Part shown: positions 1-51,999 of the stretch, piece by piece
Numbering within the stretch: the stretch's first letter is position 1
Layout of the letters: every line of letters starts with the position of its first letter
Assembly: GCA_034620365.1 (NCBI GenBank)
Contig: JAQGEQ010000380.1
Location: forward strand, 2,294,001-2,358,000
Source of the DNA: Pegea sp. RAD2-039
Lineage: Eukaryota; Chordata; Thaliacea; Salpida; Salpidae
DNA: 64,000 nt
Direction of reading: 5' to 3'
Notes under the pieces: model-generated
What the model was told of the DNA's origin: nothing
Databases searched by the model: none
Seen by the model: the letters and a program-made list of their open reading frames with translations, nothing else
Made by a program: the position numbers and the translations under genes

Positions 1-3000
1 GGTTTATTGTAGGAAGTGACTGTATCTGGCGGTGGTAGAGGATCAAAACTTAGCAACGTAATTGTTCGAATTTCCTGTTAGTTAGAAGCTAAATAAGAAA
101 AGTTGAAAAGTTTATCATCTTACAATTGGAATATATTCAGAAACTCCAATCACTTCGCTTATCAAAGCATGACGATAAATATTCAGAGGAGCTTTTTGAT
201 AATTCGATTTTCTCCTGAAAATTATTTAGTTTTTTTTGCGAGTATGAAATACAAATATCGTTTACATGTTTTGATATTTATCCAAGCGATCATCTTCATT
301 TTTATCTACGATTTTTAAGACCTTTTCCACATTTTTTTGTAACCATTCAAGAATTAAAGTATCTTTCCAGATAAGGAAATTTCTTTCAATAAACATATGA
401 CTTAGAAGCTGTAGTCCATAACTTTCACTAAAATATCAAACCAATAAATTAATCAGAACTAGCGACCAGACTTTGATATTCACCTGGTTTTTTGTGTAAA
501 GAATTTATGTTTAGAAACATCAGAAGACGGTTGAACCGAGCATTTTTCAAGAAGAGCTAATAAGACCTTTAAATTTGATCAATTTTTAATTATTTTCAAA
601 ATTAACTTATAATTAGTAATGATGATGTAATACTTTGTTGAAACAGGCAAAAAAGTTAAAAAATTTAAGCTGTTTTATGAAAGTGCGCCAACTAGAGGAC
701 GGAAATAAAGATTTTAAAAAGAAAAATTTTACTTTTTCTCCTTTCAAATCTATTTTTAGTCAGAAATATTTATATATAAAAATGAATACATAGAAATACT
801 ATGAGCTTACCGAAGGAAACCGAAGCAATGTATCCTGAAGCATCTCATCTGCTCTATTTGTATTTTGATCCTTATTTTTCATCGAGATTTGAAACTCAGC
901 TAGTGCTTGTGAATATGCCCAGTTTGGTAATTGGTTTAAATTCTTGACTAACTAAAATAGAAGTTAAAAATGATAAAAATAAATATCAGAAATATATCTC
1001 AAAGTGAATTAACAAATATTGTTTAATTAAAGTAAAAATTCTTTGCTTGGTTTCATGTAACAACTGATATTTTCAAATCTTACCCCCCAATCAATAACAG
1101 ATTTTGCGACGAACTCATATTCACCACAATTCATTGCATAGGTATCCATAAAGAGTAGACAGGCTAAAGGATCATTTTCAGGATCCAAACTAAATAAATA
1201 TAGGAAGATGAAGATCACTTAACAAATTCAATTACTTAAAGTGTTAAAAGTACCTGTATAAGAGCTTTGTTAATTCTAGAGATGTTCGATTACAACTTCT
1301 TCTTGAGATGTAATCGATAAGTTTGAACAAGCACAAGAAAAGAGTTCTAAGAAGAAAATTTATTTCAATAAATTTTGGTAAATAAAGAAATTTCTATTTA
1401 GAATTAAACCTGAAAAATGATTATTAAAACTTAAAGTTGAATAAAGTGTTGAATAAGAAAGGAAACTTTTAATCTATCATTGAATCAAGTGAATGTTGCT
1501 AGAAGATGAGAACTCTCTTCACTACATAAAAAAGTCCCGAAGAAGATTTGTTAACATCTCTTCTATGGATCGTAATATTTCTATAAGATATTTTGAAAAG
1601 ATTTTGTAATACATTTAAACAACTTTCATTCCTAATTAGTAGACGGTCAACATGAGTTTTCATTTTTATCAAATTGTTTTAAAAGTATTAAGTTGATAAC
1701 TGATGTAGCTACAAGACATCTTCAACCAAAATATTCTAAATTTGTTTCAAAAATTAACATTCAAATCATTTTATTGAAGATTATATGTAGAACAGCAACA
1801 AAGGTTTTAAGACTCCAATTAAATTATATTTAATTATTATATATAAACATTATTTTAAAAGAAAAACAACTGTACATGACAAGCTGATTTATAATTGATA
1901 TTTGAAAGCGGAGGTTTTCTGAATAGTGAGTAACCTAAAACAGGTTCAAATATTTTTGATAAGAAATAGATTCAGCTCAAAATATCTGTAAAAAAATTTA
2001 AATTTGAAACAAAAGTTTGAAAAACTCACCTATTTTCCTGGTACTTGTATTCAAGCCGGCAGTTTCCAGTAGTTAGACTGAACCGTGGATGGAATGAACG
2101 TTCAAGAAAAAACAAAGCTTTTTCTGAGTTGAAAGTTGATAATTGCCATCAATTAAAATTTAATAATCGAAATAGTGAGCTCGAAAAATAAATATTTAGT
2201 TTTCGTATTTACTTTTAAATAAAACATTTTTGATATCAAATTTTATTGAAGTAAAAGTTTCAGTCACCTAAATATTCACGGGCAAGTTTCACTTGTTCAT
2301 TCATTTTGCAAAAGTCACTAAAAACTAACATGGAATCGACATGAAATTGCTTTTCTTGTACCATTTTCTGTAAGAAAAAGTTCATTTGAAAAATCCAAAA
2401 TTCTTTTAGTTGCTTAAATATAAAATTTTACAATTTTATTTGAACTTTTCGCTTCTTTGCAGTATTAAATACAAGTCAGTTTTTAGCACTAGCGGCTAAA
2501 AAATTGATTGTGTTGATAGAAAGTGTTTAAAATTTCCAAATAAACCTTTTGTTTTAAATATTATGTTTCGAAGTAAAGATTAAATCAGAAACAGAAAGAA
2601 ATTGTGATTCTAATCAAATTTATCAAATTAAAGTTTATAAATCATCGCTACAATTAACCTTTAAATGAATAATAGTTCGCAGTGCTTTTAAGGTACTTTA
2701 AACACTTGAAATAAAAACTTCTGAGCGAAAGTACATTTAATTGATTAAAAAACTAAAACATCAATTTTAAGCACAGATGAAAAACTTAAGTTGCTTACAA
2801 AAAGTCCATCATTTTGACCAGAAGAATTGACTATATCTAAAAACTCAAATTGAAGTTTTTGATAATCTTTGTTGTGATTATATTTGAAAAACATGATATC
2901 ACTAAAAGAGAAAAACTTGGATAAGTAAAAATGTTCATTTTTATTTGCGTATACAACTAACTTTTCTGTCTTAATCAGTTCCATACTTAAACCCACTTTA

Positions 3001-4284
3001 CCAGTCCAGCTAAAGGTCTTTTGAGTCAACCACATACCTTTACTTGAACCACTAGCTTTATTTCTGTTTCGATTTTCGCTATCATTCTTCAGAACATGAG
3101 AGCCAAAAATTTTCTGTAGCTCGTTGTTAGGGTTAAGAAACCTGAAAATACTCTGCCTGTTCAAGTTTGCGATATAAATGAAATTAAAAGTAAAAAGTTA
3201 ATATAACTTGAAATAGAATCTGTATATTTTAGTTATTTGTATGCAAGAATATAAATTGACAACAAAATTTATTTTTGAAAGATTGGACATTTTAATTATT
3301 TAAACCTGTGTTCAACTTTCAATAAGGATTTAGATCTAACTGGAAACGTTTTGCTGAAATTGCAACTTTCAGTTTTCTTGTTGAACTGCTTCAAAGTTTC
3401 TTCAAAATCCTCATCTGTTTTCTAAATAAATGAAAATATTTAGCAACAAATTATTCGATCTTAATGCTACAACAATTTTTATCAAGTTTAAATACTTTAG
3501 AAAGAGATTAAACAGATTAAAACCAACTTTTTCCAATTTATTAAGGTTTCTTTTCTTCTTTTTTCTTTTCTTTCTACTTTTAGCAGAAGATTGAGATGAA
3601 GAAGCAGGTCGATTATTATGTTCTATGTCTTCAGATTTGACTTCACCATCTGAATTTTCATCATCTTCATTTGCAAGCTATCAATCAAAATTCAGCGTTT
3701 TTAAAACCTTCAAATGAAATTTGAAAATCACAAATGGCGCTCTAAGACGCTATCCGCCAGACAGAGCAAAGTATTCTGAGGTTTACTCGAAGGTGTAACT
3801 TTTGACCAATGACGATCACATCGCGTCGACCGCTGCGGATGCGCGCTTGATCTCAACGCGGTGAAGCTGGACTACTGCTGATCAAGTAGGTGATCGAGGT
3901 TTGTTAGCATTGGAGCTAGAAAATTAAAGTTTCTCTTGCCTTAAAGTGTGATTTTTTGAGAGGTTAGAGTTTGTGTAATGTAAATTAGTGAGATCAAAGC
4001 CCACAAACTCTTTCAAACGAAAGCAGTTTTCTAGAGAGTAATGTATAAACTGAGATCGTAGCTACAGTGGGGTTGAGACAAACAGTCCCTTAAAGTCTGA
4101 TTGTGGACACCATAAAGGACCGGCAAGTAGCAAAAAATATTGAGAAACAATAAACTGAAAGTACCATCAAAAATTTGTTGCTACAAGATGCATATTCTGG
4201 TTCGTCTGTTTCTTCAACTTCATCTTCTTCAACTTCCGGTAGAGATGGATTACAATAAAGTTTTCTTAAAGCTCTAGAAGACAT
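1..4284 (-). CDS. TCF25: TCF25 (NULP1/Rqc1 family), 3' end beyond window
   Basis: Homologue of TCF25/Rqc1, a component of the ribosome quality control complex that helps direct ubiquitination of stalled nascent chains. Exons read on the minus strand: 4165-4284, 3528-3677, 3306-3421, 2799-3141, 2278-2367, 2030-2123, 1254-1346, 1084-1189, 811-942, 484-566, 266-427, 124-214 and 1-74 (incomplete); all phases join. The start is ATG at 4284, giving MSSRALRKLY, the family N-terminus. An acidic stretch and a Lys/Arg-rich stretch follow. Family landmarks in order are EHRFLNPNNELQKIFG, WLTQKTFSW...GLSMEL, FHVDSMLVFSD, FHPRFSLTTGNCRLEY, SLDPENDPLACLLFMD, NLNQLPNWAYS, VLLALLEKCSVQP, NIYRHALISEV and FDPLPPPDT at the very edge. 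Only the last part of the C-terminus lies outside. The joining of exons 1 and 2 (intron 3678-4164) is the least certain. Confidence 0.93.
3700..3920. other. GC-richer block inside TCF25 intron 1
   Basis: About 200 bases, visibly richer in G and C (several CG dinucleotides, e.g. around 3820-3860) than the AT-rich intron around it. It has no open frame of note and no tRNA-like A/B boxes that I can recognise. It could be a mobile-element remnant or an internal promoter/CpG-like block; neither is shown. Confidence 0.3.
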
Positions 4285-6239: not shown

Positions 6240-6941
6240 TCATTCAGCCATTTCTGACATCTTGTGTAAAAAGTTATCTATAAGAGGCAACTTAGTTCTA
6301 AGCATAGATCCATACCCAGCTTTATTTACATTAAGAATAGTAATACTTCCATCTTGAACATTGAATAAATGCGATCTGTTTACAGGAATTTGAAGCAGAC
6401 GACAGATAAAAAACTGGACAACTTCAGGATAAGTAACAAAAGTGGTAATTTTGGGCTTTTTTCGATTAAAATGTGATCGAAATAAACACTCCATTTGAGC
6501 ATTAAAAACAAATGTATCATGTTCAGTGGGATTGACTTTATCTGCTTCACGGTCTTTGGCTCTATAGCCATTAAGTAGATTTACAAATTTCCCGCCTGGT
6601 GGCCAACTTTTTACGTTTGATAGACGAACTCTTTGAGCAAATTCTCGTTCCTCACGAATCATAAGTGAGAGAAATGTCTGTTGCCAGAAACTTTTTGTTA
6701 CTTTTGTTTGCTTTGTAGTATTACAGATAAAAACGTAGGCAGAATTTGAGCTCTCTGAGGGTGTTAATTCATCAAAGCAGTCCCATTCACCATCCCATTC
6801 GTCTGCTCTTACTTTCTTTCTTAAGCTAAGATACTTGTGAACCTGATCATCTACATTTGATACAGTGAACTTCGACTTACAAAAATTAGATAGAAAATAA
6901 GCTCCAGTTGTTAAAACTCCAAAAGACTTAACAATATTCAT
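6240..6941 (-). CDS. PGAM5-like protein, predicted catalytically dead (copy 1)
   Basis: A 233-residue single-exon ORF resembling PGAM5, the mitochondrial Ser/Thr phosphatase of the histidine phosphatase (phosphoglycerate mutase) superfamily. Residues 1-25 form a short hydrophobic N-terminal anchor, as in PGAM5. Residues 46-51 (WDGEWD) match the WDxNWD motif that drives PGAM5 multimerisation and activation. The first strand, which should carry the catalytic Arg-His-Gly/Ser triplet, reads YVFICNTTKQ, so Arg and His are gone. The C-terminal segment EVVQFFICRLLQIP aligns with NVIRYIVCRALQFP of PGAM5, but the preceding catalytic His position is Tyr (TYP). The segment DGSITIL and the tail are retained. 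I infer a pseudophosphatase that could still assemble through the WD motif. The neighbouring gene at 7716-8444 is a diverged paralogue in the same orientation. The frame has no interruptions, so it is probably under coding constraint. Confidence 0.8.
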   Translation of the reverse strand: MNIVKSFGVLTTGAYFLSNFCKSKFTVSNVDDQVHKYLSLRKKVRADEWDGEWDCFDELTPSESSNSAYVFICNTTKQTKVTKSFWQQTFLSLMIREEREFAQRVRLSNVKSWPPGGKFVNLLNGYRAKDREADKVNPTEHDTFVFNAQMECLFRSHFNRKKPKITTFVTYPEVVQFFICRLLQIPVNRSHLFNVQDGSITILNVNKAGYGSMLRTKLPLIDNFLHKMSEMAE

Positions 6942-7715
6942 CTAGAAAATGTTCAACTTGCTTCTCTTATGTAAGCAATTTTAAAGGTTTATTAAAAGAT
7001 TATCAAATGTAGAAAATATATTATATAAGCAAGAAGATTCAATTATAACAAAACTGCTGAACATAAAATTAAAACAATAAAGTATGAACAATTACAGAAT
7101 TTTAAACACCATGGAAATTTAAAAGAATTTTATGTAATCCAACTAAACTAAGGACATAACGTTGTTTTTAAATTTTAATCAACTTATTGAATAAATAAGT
7201 ATATACCAAAAACTAACTAAATTTATTTATAAATAAAATAGGCCAATAAAAATTTAAGTAAGATTTAAATTATAGAAACTTAAATTCATAAATGTAGAAG
7301 ACATAACTAAGAAGGGTATTAAATTAATAAACTAGCTATCAACAAAAACAGATTTAAAAATTTATACTTGCATATTTTATACAAAATAAATTAAAAAACT
7401 TCCACCACTTATTTAAATCCTTAAAAACAAAGAGATTATTACTGACAGACTTTTCTAAATTCTTACAGAAAAACTTTCTTAATTCTTTCACTTATATAAC
7501 CATAAAAACAAACTTACTAAATTTAAAGCAATAAATATGAATGAAAATACCAACAAAAAATTGATACAATCTTAACAAAATTTATATTAGCTTTAAATAA
7601 TGACAAACATACAAATATTTTACATTACAAAGCATTTTCTAAGAGTTGTTTAACATTATCTTTTAGTTATCATGTTTTTATCAACAAAAGTTTTAACAAC
7701 CATCACAAGTTTTAT
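6942..7715. other. AT-rich spacer between the two PGAM5-like genes
   Basis: Nothing recognised beyond AT-rich sequence. It should contain the promoter of the copy starting at 6941 and the 3' UTR of the copy ending at 7716. Confidence 0.5.
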
Positions 7716-8444
7716 CTAAAGTAATTCCTGTTTAAAAAGTTCATTCAATTTTGGACTAAAGGGATTTGAGTTGTAAAAATATACTCTACCATCATTAGTA
7801 ACATACAACTCAACAACTGTCCCTTCTTTAACATCAAATCTGCCACAAGACTCAAGTGGTAGTTGTATAGCTCGAGTTAACATAAACTTGACAACATCTG
7901 GAGAAGCTACCATAATTCTTCTAGATGAAACACCTCTACAGATATACTTTTTAAAAGCATATTCTAAAATAGAACGATTTACAAAATTTTGATGTTCATT
8001 TTGAGGATTAATTTCAGGTTGGGTGAAGTTTAAATCAACATCATTCAGAACTTTAGAATAATGTGAGTTAGCATCATAAAAGGCAGGAGCAAACATTGAT
8101 TTCAAATTCTCAACAAAACCTCTATGTTCTTCAGAAGAAATATAAGTAAGCGGCATAACATTACTTAACATTTTGGAATCTATTATATGCATTCTAATAT
8201 CATTCAAAAATCTTTGATTTTGGGCTGGATTCTTATAAGGACAAATGAAATGATATGTTCGGTCACCAAAGTTGTTTTCTTCACGACCATCCCAATTAAA
8301 ATTCCATTGGGCCGCATTTGCAACTTTTCTAGGACTATAACTCAACACTTTCTCCTTTATATTTGATATAGAATATTTTGATTTATAATAACAAGATAAT
8401 GATAAAACACTTCCAAAAATTCCTACACATTTAATGCTTTTCAT
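7716..8444 (-). CDS. PGAM5-like protein, predicted catalytically dead (copy 2)
   Basis: A 242-residue single-exon ORF, paralogue of the gene at 6240-6941. The N-terminal 20 residues are hydrophobic and likely anchor it in a mitochondrial membrane, as in PGAM5. Residues 47-54 (WNFNWDGR) closely match the PGAM5 multimerisation segment WDPNWDRRE. The strand that carries Arg-His in active enzymes reads YHFICPYKN, so the nucleophilic His and its Arg are replaced. The second catalytic His (ICHANVIRY in PGAM5) is replaced in VASPDVVKFMLTRAIQLP, while the rest of that helix (Val-Val...Arg-Ala-x-Gln-x-Pro) is kept, as is the strand KEGTVVELYVTNDGRV. It is more PGAM5-like than its neighbour. I infer a scaffold or decoy role, not phosphatase activity. 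Whether an active PGAM5 exists elsewhere in the genome cannot be seen. Confidence 0.82.
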   Translation of the reverse strand: MKSIKCVGIFGSVLSLSCYYKSKYSISNIKEKVLSYSPRKVANAAQWNFNWDGREENNFGDRTYHFICPYKNPAQNQRFLNDIRMHIIDSKMLSNVMPLTYISSEEHRGFVENLKSMFAPAFYDANSHYSKVLNDVDLNFTQPEINPQNEHQNFVNRSILEYAFKKYICRGVSSRRIMVASPDVVKFMLTRAIQLPLESCGRFDVKEGTVVELYVTNDGRVYFYNSNPFSPKLNELFKQELL

Positions 8445-8763: not shown

Positions 8764-10371
8764 TTAGCTAGTAGTCTTTTTAAAATGATTTAATAAACAT
8801 TTAATAGAAAACTTAATATTTGACATTTTTGTGCTTGCATAACCCAATTTTTTAGAGCTTAAATTATAAATATACCCAAAACCTAGTGCTAATACAGTAC
8901 ATACAAAACATATGACATTATAAGGCATTGAAAAATCTGGTACAGGTATGTTCACTAAAAGAGGCTCACCAAATATTTTCATATTCTGTTTTTCTACATT
9001 TGTAAGAAGGGTTTGATTTATAGAATTTACAATGAGAACAGAAGGACTGATATAAAATCCATGATTTGCATCAGGCGGGTATTCAGTCCATTTTAAAAAT
9101 CCTTTTTCAAAATCAAGATAAACTGATGTAGTTGAGTTTGGAGGTAATGTCATCATTATTTCCAAAATATGAGCCGATTTTCTAAACTGACCAGGTATGA
9201 ATTTGGTAAACTCAGGTTTAACTTTCATATTTTTATCATTTGACAAGAATAAAGTATGAAACTTTAAATATAAGAACCAGGGAAAAACTTGTAAAAATGA
9301 AATAGAAATTTGATCTTTTTTAAAGTTGCTAATTGAACAACATACACGACCAAATGAATATTTTTCTATTAAAAAGCAATGGTTAAATATATCTGATTGT
9401 TTTTGAGGGTTACTTGGTAATGAAACACTATTATAAATATTTTGAATGACAATGTCCTTTGGTGTATCTTTCTTCAAATTAAAAGAAAAAACAAGTTCAT
9501 CTTGATTAGAACCAGTGGGATAAGAAAGCATTTGATTATTTTTTGCAATGATAATATGACTACTAGTTGCTATGCTACATGGAGACTTTAAAGAGTTACC
9601 AAATGTTGACTTTAAGCTAAATGAATCATAGTTTGAGTCACTGCCTTGAACATCTAAAACCGCAGTCAAGTCTTGTCTAATGTAGACATCTAAATCCTTA
9701 CAAAGATTATCAACACATATGGAATTAAAATGAAAACCCATTGAAAGATAGTGACTATTATGAAGGTATTTATAATTTATAAGAGAAGCAATACCAAAAT
9801 TTGTAAAACAAGGTAACTGCTTTAGCCATGGTGTTAAATTTTCAGTACAAAGATTTTCTTTCACAACTGAAACATATCTAATTAAAGGAAAATTTTCTTC
9901 TGTGATATCATTTTCAGAAAAAAAATTTAGTTTAGTCTGAACAGCCATGTCTAATGAAATTTGTTCTAAAGATGTACAAAATATTCCAGATAAGGCATTC
10001 AACAAACCTTTCCATAGTTTATCTACATTAGAGCTTCCTTTTTTAAACTTAACCCAAACCTGAGTTCCAGTAGGAGCTGAAGCAAATGGTTTTGTCCAAA
10101 TATTATGTCTCCAAAAACCTCTGGTTATTGTAAAATGAATTTCTGAAACTTTATATCTTTTAAGTATTTGACCAATGGAACGTGGAAAAAGAGAATAATG
10201 ATCAGAACTAAAATCTTTAAAAGAAGTCACTGTAGTAAAGTTTAGATATGTATGCAGAAGATTTTTGTCCATAAACTCAATATTTGCAGTTTCATGAAAC
10301 TCTTCATAGCTTGAAGCAGATTTCAGGTAGATCAGGCCAACCAAAAAAGATAATAACAGTTTCATGGCCAT
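8764..10371 (-). CDS. PIGT: GPI transamidase subunit PIG-T
   Basis: A 535-residue single-exon ORF. PIG-T is a subunit of the ER GPI transamidase that attaches GPI anchors to proteins, and it stabilises the catalytic subunit PIG-K by a disulphide. Seen here: an N-terminal signal peptide (residues 1-21, MKLLLSFLVGLIYLKSASS); HTYLNFTT; HYSLFPRSIGQILKRY; RGFWRHNIW; SGIFCTSLEQI; CTENLTPWLKQLPC; FPWFLYLKFHTL; LKWTEYPPDANHGFYISPSVL; and LLVNIPVPDFSMPYNVICFVCT leading into a C-terminal transmembrane helix (about 490-510) with a short basic cytoplasmic tail. All are family hallmarks and the length is normal. Translation could start at the first or the third codon (both Met). The absence of introns is notable, since several other genes in the window are heavily split. 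Confidence 0.97.
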   Translation of the reverse strand: MAMKLLLSFLVGLIYLKSASSYEEFHETANIEFMDKNLLHTYLNFTTVTSFKDFSSDHYSLFPRSIGQILKRYKVSEIHFTITRGFWRHNIWTKPFASAPTGTQVWVKFKKGSSNVDKLWKGLLNALSGIFCTSLEQISLDMAVQTKLNFFSENDITEENFPLIRYVSVVKENLCTENLTPWLKQLPCFTNFGIASLINYKYLHNSHYLSMGFHFNSICVDNLCKDLDVYIRQDLTAVLDVQGSDSNYDSFSLKSTFGNSLKSPCSIATSSHIIIAKNNQMLSYPTGSNQDELVFSFNLKKDTPKDIVIQNIYNSVSLPSNPQKQSDIFNHCFLIEKYSFGRVCCSISNFKKDQISISFLQVFPWFLYLKFHTLFLSNDKNMKVKPEFTKFIPGQFRKSAHILEIMMTLPPNSTTSVYLDFEKGFLKWTEYPPDANHGFYISPSVLIVNSINQTLLTNVEKQNMKIFGEPLLVNIPVPDFSMPYNVICFVCTVLALGFGYIYNLSSKKLGYASTKMSNIKFSIKCLLNHFKKTTS

Positions 10372-25389: not shown

Positions 25390-25742
25390 GTTTTTGAACA
25401 ATTATTCTTATAATGATAATAGATTTTTTTTAACAAATCTTTTTTAAATTGATGACTCAATCATCTTTTATTAATCAAAAATATATACAAGAAGCTAGCA
25501 TCTAAGCTTAAAGTCTTCCTCACAAAAAATTCTTATCATCCCTATATCTTATGTAAATAAATATCTTTATATCTTATGCAAGTAAATATTTCATAATTTT
25601 CTGCATATAAAATTTGAAGCTTTTAAGCATTGGGAGCCTCACAATTTAACCGTTATAAAAATAATGATTACTAAGAGAAATAAAATTGTTAAAGCTACAA
25701 ATACTTTGTGTGGTATAACAGTAAAGTATTTTGTTGCTGACC
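25390..25742. repeat. Tandem repeat unit, copy A
   Basis: First of two head-to-tail copies. Both begin at GTTTTTGAACAA and end at TTGTTGCTGACC, and the interior is nearly identical over about 290 bases. Copy A is longer by about 50 bases: it has an extra block after the first dozen bases and another near 25,463-25,496. Inside the unit there is a smaller duplication of TATCTTATGxAAxTAAATAT. Confidence 0.9.
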
Positions 25743-26046
25743 GTTTTTGAACAAGATAATAGATTTTTTTTAACAAATCTTTTTTAAATTGATGACGAAG
25801 CTAGCATCTAAGCTTAAAGTCTTCCTCACAAAAAATTCTTAAATCCTATATCTTATGTAAATAAATATCTTTATATCTTATGCAAGTAAATATTTCATAA
25901 TTTTCTGCATATAAAATTTGAAGCTTTTAAGCATTGGGAGCCTCACAATTTAACCGTTATAAAAATAATGATTACTAAGAGAAATAAAATTGTTAAAGCT
26001 ACAAATACTTTGTGTGGTATAACAGTAAAGTATTTTGTTGCTGACC
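25743..26046. repeat. Tandem repeat unit, copy B
   Basis: Second copy, abutting copy A with no spacer; only a few differences over the shared part. The near-identity indicates a recent duplication. No coding frame spans it. Confidence 0.9.
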
Positions 26047-26049
26047 GAA

Positions 26050-32646: not shown

Positions 32647-35245
32647 ATGCCTATCGGTTATGTAGCCTACATCATTCGTGATGTAGTACCAAATTATTTG
32701 ACAAAAGTTCCGATTCCAAGGTCGCTTAGAGATTGTACTAACTTGACTAGTAAGCTGTTTGAAAAATATTTTTTGGTGTCTACTTAAAAAACTTGTTATG
32801 ATTAAGGAATACTGTACAATTTATTTACAGTTTAAAAATAATTTTCAACTTCTTTTGTTTAGGAGGTGACTGGATGCACTTAATTTGTTTTTCTGCTGCT
32901 TTTGGAGGATTTGTGTATGTTGTTACAAAACCTTTTTATGATACACACATAACTAAAACTAATGTTATGATAAATAAATCTGTAAGAAAATTTGATAGAA
33001 GAGTAGTTGACACAATTGATATTGAAGATCTTGGCGAAGTTACAAACTTTTGTCGTTGTTGGAAATCTAAAAGAGTAAGTTGAATATTTCTTTTATTTTG
33101 TAATAACTTTGTAGGATCATTGCAAATTAAGTAATCATTGTAAATTAAACTCTCTTCAGCCACCCTCGTTTGCGTTTATTGTAATAAGTAAATAAGTGGA
33201 TTGATTATTTACTAAATTAGTTTAGAATGTGTAAATATAATTTAAAAAATTAGATTTATCACTAAGAAATTGTAATACATTGAAAAAGATTATTTTATTG
33301 TAATTAGTAAAAATACATGTAAAGTAATTGACGGTTTGCACATAAAAATTAAAATCCATAATCTATATACTATGAAGTTATAAAACAAGCTGATTAAGTC
33401 TTGTTTTGCAAATAGTTTCCTTTCTGTGATGGCACACATAACTCCCACTGCAAAACAACTGGCGATAATGTAGGGAATTTGATTATTACTCGAATTCCTA
33501 TGACACGACCAGCTCCAAGGATCCCACTAGGTCCAATTCTAAAAAGAGATAAAGATTGTGATCGTTCTAAAGAACCTGATAAAGATGATGATTCACACCC
33601 AGAAACTCCGCCAGAGTCTCAACCAGAACCAGAGTCTCAACCAGAACCAGAATCTCAGCCAGAACCAGAATCTCAACCAGAACCAGAGTCTCAACCAGAA
33701 CCAGAATCTCAACCAGAACCAGAATCTCAACCAGAACCAGAGTCTCAACCAGAACCTGATTCTAAGCCGGAGCCAGAATCTCAGCCTGAACCTGATTCTG
33801 AGCCTAAACCAGAGCCGGAGCAGGAGGATGAATCAAAGTTAGATTCAGAAATGAAACTAAAACTAAAAAGTCTGAAAAATCAACGAATAAACTCCAATAA
33901 AAAATTAGATCTTAAACTAGATGATGGAAGTTTTTCTTCAGAAAACGACGAGATATATTTAAATAAGACATCTTCAAATGAAAAACTTGTTGAAAAAAAG
34001 CATCGAAGTCGAAGATTAAAAGCAAGAAGAGGTGGGAAAATAAGTGAAAATGTTGAAAGACTAAAATATGAAAGTGGAAACATAAGTGATGCGTCTACTG
34101 CTTCCAACAAAAGTTTTACTGAAAAGGTCTTCCTTGAAAGTAGTAATTTAGAAGAACCACTCTATTTTTCACCTAAAAAAGTTGAAACTACTGTTTTTTC
34201 TGAAAGCAATCATTTTGAAGTAACTCCAATTACTGTGGAAACTGCATTACTTCATTCAGAATTAGGAGATGTGAACTCAAATGCTTGTTTCACTACCAGT
34301 ACGTCAAAACTAGATATGTGTAACTATACTAACATGCCTGAAATAACTATCGTTGAAAAAGTCTTTATATCAACCATAGATAATAAAGAAGAGTTATCTG
34401 AAAACAATTTCACAAACGTAGATGAAACTTTATTATACGATACTATCTTGATAAATGAAAACAATGAGCAAAGTAAGTTTGATGAAAATGTTGTAGAAAA
34501 TTATCTGGATTCTAACAACGTAGACGAAACAACAAATTTTAATAAAGAAATTGAAAGTGTTAGTGATGTTACCAAAGATATCTCTATTGCTACAAAATCT
34601 TTTATGTTGGAAAATGAAGTTAATGTTATGAGTGATAATTCAGCCACGATAAAACACCAAAGCACTATTGAACAAAATAATTCCTCTATAGTATCGACCT
34701 CGAAGTTAGATTCTACAAATGACCCTACTGATAATACTCTTAAATCATCTTTTTCTGAAGATGCTAATAGAGAAGTTAGAAATGTAGCTGATTCTACTGG
34801 TGAACATTTCACATCTGATATTACTCTTGCGTTTACATCTAATTTAGATAAAACTAGTAGCTTAAGTACACAACCAGCTTCGTCTCAATCTGGAATAAAT
34901 GAAAGTTTGCAAACATCCCAAGTTAATGCAGACGAAGTTCAGAATGAAGTTATGAAAAATTCAAAGCTCCAAAGTAATTTGATTCATTATCCTAACAGTT
35001 TTGGTGCTAACTCAATTAAGAATAGCGATTATTGCAATTTTATGCGCTATTCCTACTTTGAATCATTGAATAATGAATCTTCAGTACAATCAGCTGATCA
35101 ACAAAATGTTATTGAGACTAACTACGAATTTGATGGAGACGAAATATGTCATGATTTTATTGACGGCCAAGTAGAAATTCAAGATAGATTGTATGAGCTT
35201 TTAGATTCTAACGATGAACCATTAAATGACCGAGAGAATTTGTGA
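32647..35245 (+). CDS. CISD2: CISD2-type CDGSH iron-sulphur protein fused to a long acidic tail
   Basis: Exons 32647-32749, 32863-33074 and 33416-35245 (phases 1 and 0) give about 714 residues. CISD2 (NAF-1/Miner1) is a 2Fe-2S protein of the ER and outer mitochondrial membrane. Exon 1 reads [18 protein letters not shown] then [16 protein letters not shown], matching the CISD2 N-terminus. Exon 2 gives GDW, a membrane helix ([15 protein letters not shown]), TKPFYD and [11 protein letters not shown]. Across the exon 2/3 junction it reads [16 protein letters not shown], with all three Cys and the His ligand and the [10 protein letters not shown] end of the domain. A normal CISD2 stops about here at roughly 135 residues. 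Instead the frame runs on without a stop through [15 protein letters not shown], eight perfect ESQPEP units, and about 450 acidic Ser/Asn/Thr-rich residues to TGA. The tail is presumably disordered and cytosolic. The alternative is a short isoform made by splicing out the tail; no obvious donor right after the domain was found. Confidence 0.85.
33614..33757 (+). repeat. Coding minisatellite, eight ESQPEP repeats (18 bp each)
   Basis: Eight consecutive 18-base units (type GAGTCTCAACCAGAACCA) in frame inside the CISD2 fusion tail, followed by degenerate units ([18 protein letters not shown]) to about 33,820. Units differ only at a few third positions (GAG/GAA, CAA/CAG), so the array is young and likely to vary in length. 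Another frame through it gives a spurious Asn/Gln/Leu-rich ORF. Confidence 0.97.
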
Positions 35246-41047: not shown

Positions 41048-46265
<5,218 letters not shown>

Positions 46266-47238: not shown

Positions 47239-51317
<4,079 letters not shown>

Positions 51318-51999
51318 TTACAATTTTGGTTATTCAATAATATTGCAAAGATTTACTTATTTTAACTAAATAAGAAATCTTCTGTAACTACTCATTTATT
51401 TAACCTGAAATAAAAAATATTACACAAGTGTATAAAAACCAAATTGAAAAAATAAGAATGTACGCTGGACATTTGTTGTAAAGTATTGTTTGAATACTAT
51501 TTATTAAAAGTAAATTTGTAGAAACTTTGATAACTACTATAGAAAGCGATGAAACTTAGTCGTCAGTATTTTTCACCAACAAACTAAACTGAAAATAAAC
51601 AAATATTTGTTAAATAAAATAAACTTTTCTGCATCATTTAATGAAGAAGTTCTCGAAACTTGTGAGTTCTCATTGCCTAGATGTTATTTTTAACAACTAA
51701 ACTGCTCTACAGATGCAATCCTGGATTAAGTGTAAAGAATTATTCAAACTTGTCTCTTTTTTTAATTTGCATTTTTAAGTTTATAAAATATTAATAATAG
51801 TAAAGTGGAAGATTTCTTTTCTAAATAATCATAAATTTTCAATTCTTTAAACCTATTTAAGCAATTAAAATAATAAGTAAATGATAATTTTTCTCTGGCA
51901 TTCATAAGATCTCTTCTTAGACGCTTAAGGAAGCCAGACATAAAATTGAGAATCGCTTAGATAAATAAACGATCAAATAGGTAAACTTTGCAAAGCTTA

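Follow-up and report, generated by a model that had tools for sequence, protein, structure and literature searches.

PGAM5 acts in mitophagy, in mitochondrial shape and in cell death, and the share of its action that is catalytic as against structural is a question that bears on the gene family described here. In the available part of PMC6355839, roles are described for H105, R152, H230 and Y108 of human PGAM5, and its WDxxWD peptide is said to drive dodecamer and ring formation even in trans. According to the same text, the H105A mutant is dead, yet forms dodecamers and clusters mitochondria, while higher-order assembly and clustering are lost in the AAxxAA mutant, which forms mainly dimers, and in the monomeric F244E mutant (PMC6355839). 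The N-terminal transmembrane anchor of PGAM5 is cleaved by PARL under the control of the oligomeric state, as stated in the accessible portion of PMC9436811. Two PGAM5 genes are found together in one animal in the case of Drosophila, with Pgam5 and Pgam5-2 named in the available text of PMC9800997, and the pseudophosphatase PTPRU offers a phosphatase fold without catalysis (PMC7320164, available part).

Two adjacent genes of the salp Pegea sp. RAD2-039, hereafter A and B, resemble human PGAM5 (PDB 5MUF, 3MXO and 6CNI) by their anchor-like N terminus, their WDxxWD-type motif, their C-terminal histidine-phosphatase core and their similar length. They differ from it by the absence of R104, H105 and H230 (numbering of human PGAM5, as for all family sites below) and by belonging to a set of at least 15 copies in one genome. 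As in H105A, a dead active site would go with a kept assembly motif, but the laboratory mutant carries one engineered change whereas A and B are natural genes that have lost most of the active site. The Drosophila genes, likened here by gene number alone, are two named genes and not fifteen in the text available, and PTPRU belongs to the receptor tyrosine phosphatase family and not to the histidine phosphatases. Among the matches listed in a search of open-access PMC literature, judged by titles and abstract starts, no paper dealt with pseudo-PGAM5 genes or with an expansion of the PGAM5 family. The observation made on A and B is confirmed as real and turns out to be larger than the original prediction, since the pair belongs to an expanded PGAM5 family in which most members are without catalytic residues.

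The window, that is the whole stretch of 64,000 nucleotides analysed here (contig JAQGEQ010000380.1), carries A and B as two adjacent uninterrupted ORFs on the minus strand, at the place where they had been predicted (Table 1). They had also been called intronless, which holds in so far as each consists of one open frame, although untranslated exons may exist. The pair adjoins a gene for PIG-T, a GPI transamidase subunit, located at 8764-10371 of the window and made of one uninterrupted 535-aa ORF (Pfam Gpi16, E 9.6e-106). Elsewhere in the window, a 4.5 kb tandem duplication (41546-46088 and 47318-51854, 97.6% identical) carries the C-terminal domain of ATE1, an arginyl-tRNA-protein transferase, in its 41546-46088 copy and near-identical ORFs in the other. 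A short tandem pair (25491-25743 and 25797-26047) is 98.8% identical, and a 588-aa ORF at 33479-35245 starts with a long SQPEPE-type repeat and has a sub-threshold Pfam match only.

Table 1. Features of copies A and B (positions in the window) and members of the PGAM5-like family in the genome
Feature	Position	Strand	Basis
Copy A, PGAM5-like pseudophosphatase ORF, 233 aa	6240..6941	-	ORF, HMM, Foldseek
Copy A, anchor-like N-terminal segment, residues 1-22	6876..6941	-	Hydropathy scan, 15 members
Copy A, multimerisation motif WDGEWD, residues 49-54	6780..6797	-	Counterpart of human PGAM5 WDxxWD (PMC6355839, available part)
Copy A, degenerate motif 1 ICNTTK, residues 72-77, where PGAM5 has LIRHS	6711..6728	-	Alignments
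Copy A, Tyr171 at the human PGAM5 His230 site	6429..6431	-	Six of six MAFFT settings
Copy A, C-terminal PGAM5 core, residues 138-209, including LQIP	6315..6530	-	PDB search, HMM
Copy B, PGAM5-like pseudophosphatase ORF, 242 aa	7716..8444	-	ORF, HMM, Foldseek
Copy B, anchor-like N-terminal segment, residues 1-21	8382..8444	-	Hydropathy
Copy B, multimerisation motif WNFNWD, residues 47-52	8289..8306	-	Alignment
Copy B, degenerate motif 1 ICPYKN, residues 67-72	8229..8246	-	Alignments
Copy B, Ser181 at the human PGAM5 His230 site	7902..7904	-	Six of six MAFFT settings
Copy B, C-terminal PGAM5 core, residues 147-219, including IQLP	7788..8006	-	PDB search, HMM
Intact active-site members: C11, C25, C39, C246a			
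Degenerate members: A, B, C262, C59a-c (tandem cluster), C246b, C19, C21a-c (tandem cluster)			

A and B are confirmed as relatives of PGAM5 by descent. PGAM5 holds the first rank in the PDB for both copies, by sequence and by fold, and single-sequence searches match the human protein via the C-terminal core only (residues 147-209 of A, E 0.023; residues 154-223 of B, E 0.003). A Pfam search of the two proteins gave no match above cut-off. With the histidine phosphatase branch 1 profile in particular (PF00300, curated cut-off 21.7), A reaches 11.5 bits and B gives no match, and C19 alone among the 11 degenerate copies of the family passes, C246b (21.5) and C59b (21.2) lying slightly below. A profile HMM of intact PGAM5, made from the four intact paralogues of the same genome together with the PDB rows of human PGAM5 and Plasmodium 3eoz, gives 38.7 bits for A and 56.1 bits for B, where 900 shuffled controls score at most 5.6 bits. 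B aligns to this HMM in a single stretch (residues 21-223) and A in two (residues 11-57 with 8.1 bits and 137-209 with 29.5 bits) with nothing between. The two copies match each other over residues 4-209 (E 5.8e-10, 27% identity), and their identity in the linker, the motif and the core is weakly above that of the rest (permutation p 0.06). Compared with three of the intact paralogues, A reaches 16-20% identity over the alignment, and B shows 27% pairwise identity to the intact paralogue C25, which scores 149.6 bits against human PGAM5.

Structure prediction had been proposed as a check, and its outcome is mixed. The AlphaFold models, which used no sequences but the two of the window, are of low confidence (pLDDT 42.3 for A and 40.8 for B) and the TM-scores for PGAM5 chains are low (0.29-0.42 by query length), but a Foldseek search of 350,542 PDB chains places human PGAM5 chains at ranks 1-20 for both models, with best E values of 1.3e-5 (A) and 4.2e-7 (B). 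Viral or bacterial relatives were sought by tblastn, in genome contigs with the four intact proteins and in viral contigs with those and the A/B pair, and none was confirmed.

The predicted PGAM5 architecture, namely an anchor-like N terminus, a W[DN]xxWD motif and a C-terminal core, is found in A and in B. The first acidic residue stands at position 31 in both copies, and none occurs before position 22 in any of the 15 N termini of the family. The hydropathy of this segment is modest, the best 15-residue Kyte-Doolittle mean being 1.31 in A and 1.71 in B, within a range of 0.88-1.85 for all 15 members. Both tryptophans of the multimerisation motif, W58 and W62, are present in A and in B, and B has an Asn for the first Asp. 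At the ring-interface sites R65/Y198/F244, the residues are F/F/I in A and R/F/L in B; these sites vary in the four intact paralogues too, and the F244 site is a Leu in all four.

Scrutiny of the active site bears out the predicted loss of the Arg-His pair of the first motif and of the second His. Indeed, R104, which we take to be an active-site residue of human PGAM5, H105 and H230 are kept in none of the six cells that A and B provide, whichever of the six MAFFT settings is used. Motif 1 could be misplaced by one or two residues: MAFFT puts T-T (A) and Y-K (B) at the Arg-His, where the original prediction had C-N and C-P, and Arg-His is absent from ICNTTK and ICPYKN in any register. The nearest His of B, His65, sits in the strand preceding motif 1. 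The R152 site depends on the alignment (no Arg in one, Arg108 of B in another, an Arg of A in one of the six MAFFT settings) and is unsafe for comparison because the middle of A and B aligns poorly. As for the non-catalytic positions invariant in PGAM5, 16 of 40 cells are kept by the two copies. From the lost residues, we infer that A and B would be catalytically inactive.

The window's own genome (105.7 Mb in 387 contigs, AT-rich), searched with ten protein queries and with the Pfam PF00300 profile, holds at least 15 PGAM5-like genes. All of those found are single ORFs; the active site is intact in four of them, and the other 11 are degenerate. The figure of 15 is a lower bound because C11, C39, C246a, C59b and C21b did not serve as queries and the best candidates alone were scored. 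The search for an active PGAM5 in the genome, suggested along with the original prediction, is answered by the four paralogues with an intact active site. The 11 degenerate copies all have open frames, of 201-260 aa; C21b, weak when taken alone (14.1 bits), owes its place in the count to its match with C21a (E 1.1e-13). Three further PF00300 matches (C71, C21:486926 and C9) were left out of the family count. Among them, C71, presumably a phosphoglycerate mutase-like gene, is apparently split by introns, whereas the PIG-T gene beside the A/B pair is a single uninterrupted ORF.

Two other loci of the family were noted as well. On L026, the intact C246a (1471-2211) directly adjoins the degenerate C246b (2513-3247), which keeps the second catalytic His. 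On L033, C21a (1471-2136) still has a His where the nucleophile belongs (ILAHSDA), but it lacks the Arg before it and the second His.

Human PGAM5 and the four intact copies share 25 invariant alignment columns, 21 of which are non-catalytic. For R104, H105 and H230, the 11 degenerate copies retain the PGAM5 residue in 3 of 33 cells, versus 95 of 212 non-gap cells of the non-catalytic invariants (Fisher one-sided 3e-5), a test that is weaker than its headline because motif 1 was used to define a copy as degenerate, R152 shifts with the alignment and the cells are not independent. When R152 is included as aligned, 3 of 42 cells are kept (p 8e-7); over the six MAFFT settings the count is 3-5 of 40-44 (p <=2e-5), and it becomes 7 of 42 (p 4e-4) if R152 is generously counted as kept in four copies. 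H230 alone is kept in one of the 11 copies (p 0.01-0.02), and R152 and H230 together in 1 of 20 cells (p 2e-4, a value resting on one alignment).

The invariants most often kept by the degenerate copies are W62, P185 and F208 (10/11 each), followed by P245 (9/11), and W58 is kept in 7/11, the results for both tryptophans being unchanged across the six MAFFT settings. Some non-catalytic invariants are lost as widely as the catalytic ones, such as Y108 (0/11 kept), R235 (1/11) and G124, Q127, A128, G132, A153 and E177 (2/11 each). The strict W[DN]xxWD pattern is present in six of the 11 degenerate copies versus two of the four intact ones; C59b is without the multimerisation motif, and C262, C59a, C21b and C246b fail the strict pattern. 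R104 survives solely in C19, H105 in C21a and H230 in C246b, so that, barring reversion, an ancestor shared by all 11 copies must still have had each of the three. At the level of residues, loss does look repeated across the wider family.

The family tree, built with the catalytic columns left out, is almost a star with long terminal branches, and one of its 14 inner branches is starred. The starred pair is C21a and C21b (98/95); the A/B node has 92/96 support and carries a warning that long branches meet there. The best tree has two changes between the intact and degenerate states, and the degenerate copies are united on one side of a branch in 0 of 200 bootstrap trees; the AU test does not reject a single clade of degenerate copies (p 0.43). 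C246a and C246b are not joined in the tree, and their pairing is not rejected by the AU test either (p 0.35). A and B are probably sisters. Since they group together and share the FIC strand end, one loss before the tandem duplication would be the simpler course of events, which leaves the parallel loss that had been proposed within the pair unsupported. A simple retrocopy origin is unsupported because the intact paralogues are also single-ORF genes.

The loss of R104, H105 and H230 could be the mark of decaying pseudogenes whose frames are open by chance, a reading that the coding pattern makes very improbable. Among the 58 identical residues of A and B (Met and Trp excluded), 35 differ in codon, where 29.8 are expected at full saturation if codons are drawn independently from family usage. 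The proposed dN/dS check between the copies was computed (pS 0.68, pN 0.48) but has no usable denominator, the ratio being uninterpretable because synonymous sites are saturated. Given a stop frequency of 0.087 per codon in local intergenic DNA, a frame scrambled completely by neutral change would remain free of stops with a probability of 5e-10 for A and 2e-10 for B, and in simulations that start from an intact gene the frames are still open in 15% of cases at 0.05 base replacements per site, in 2.9% at 0.1 and in 0 of 2000 at 0.2. Long neutrality is excluded because both frames are open despite synonymous saturation, and on the same ground decaying pseudogenes were rejected, in keeping with the original prediction that this is not simple decay. 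The open frames of all 11 degenerate copies and the coding-type composition of A (GC by codon position 0.44/0.35/0.25) also stand against decay. A very recent death of one copy, though limited by the simulations, may have occurred; there is strong evidence for long-term past constraint. If the genes are retained, they might in principle be active phosphatases with relocated catalytic residues, as the poorly aligned middles could hold an Arg in the role of R152 and the register of motif 1 may shift by one or two residues. This is scarcely credible and was rejected, since motif 1 has no Arg-His in any register and the H230 site of A and B has no His in six of six settings.

The reading that we prefer, albeit tentatively and with our judgement nearly evenly divided, is that A and B are catalytically dead PGAM5 paralogues, that is mitochondrial pseudophosphatases, which would join or tune PGAM5 assemblies as non-catalytic subunits. 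It fits because the anchor-like N terminus, the motif tryptophans and the core are kept while most of the active site is lost. A and B would sit in the mitochondrial membrane by means of their N-terminal anchor. Their W[DN]xxWD segment and core would let them join PGAM5 ring assemblies or, alternatively, they may donate the motif in trans to PGAM5 rings. As non-catalytic subunits, they could build mitochondrial scaffolds, and they could reduce or adjust the phosphatase activity of the intact paralogues. The mitochondrial location, the co-assembly with intact paralogues and the regulatory or scaffold effect are what we infer for the pair. The proposed selection for a non-catalytic role agrees with the coding constraint and with the coexistence of intact PGAM5 genes, whereas the part of filament, decoy or regulator is one that A and B may play.

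Speaking against joint assembly, the interface residues R65, Y198 and F244 appear weakly kept, and the retained pseudophosphatases might instead be independent mitochondrial binding proteins, for instance of substrates or phosphosites, acting outside PGAM5 rings, with motif tryptophans that merely stabilise the fold. The lack of conservation of the R65 and Y198 equivalents, the five degenerate copies out of 11 that fail the strict motif (C262, C59a, C59b, C246b and C21b) and the long terminal branches would all suit such proteins. However, W62 is among the most widely kept invariants (10/11), and the degenerate copies do not fall behind the intact ones in the strict pattern (6/11 versus 2/4), so that we consider independent binding somewhat unlikely. 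Tissue- or sex-restricted duplicates, testis-biased and born of mitochondrial or sexual conflict, would make the catalytic loss incidental to a germline role. This would agree with copies that are both dispersed and in tandem, single-ORF and strongly diverged, of a nuclear-encoded mitochondrial gene, and it has a precedent in Drosophila, where a testis bias is seen in many of the new duplicates of nuclear-encoded mitochondrial genes (PMC8950493, available part). The intact genes are single-ORF as well, which leaves retroposition unsupported, and we regard a germline origin of this kind as distinctly unlikely; it is compatible with the assembly-subunit explanation and not exclusive of it.

A broader possibility, which we deem unlikely at the scale of the family, is that PGAM5 has turned predominantly non-catalytic in this genome. 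Catalytic residues would have been lost repeatedly while the anchor and the assembly motif were kept, and the dead subunits (11 versus 4 among the genes found) would form mixed or wholly structural mitochondrial rings and filaments. Eleven degenerate copies beside four intact ones make a natural experiment on the catalytic versus structural action of PGAM5, with dead subunits to test. If true, such a mostly non-catalytic family would be the equivalent, in nature and over many genes, of the H105A laboratory mutant.
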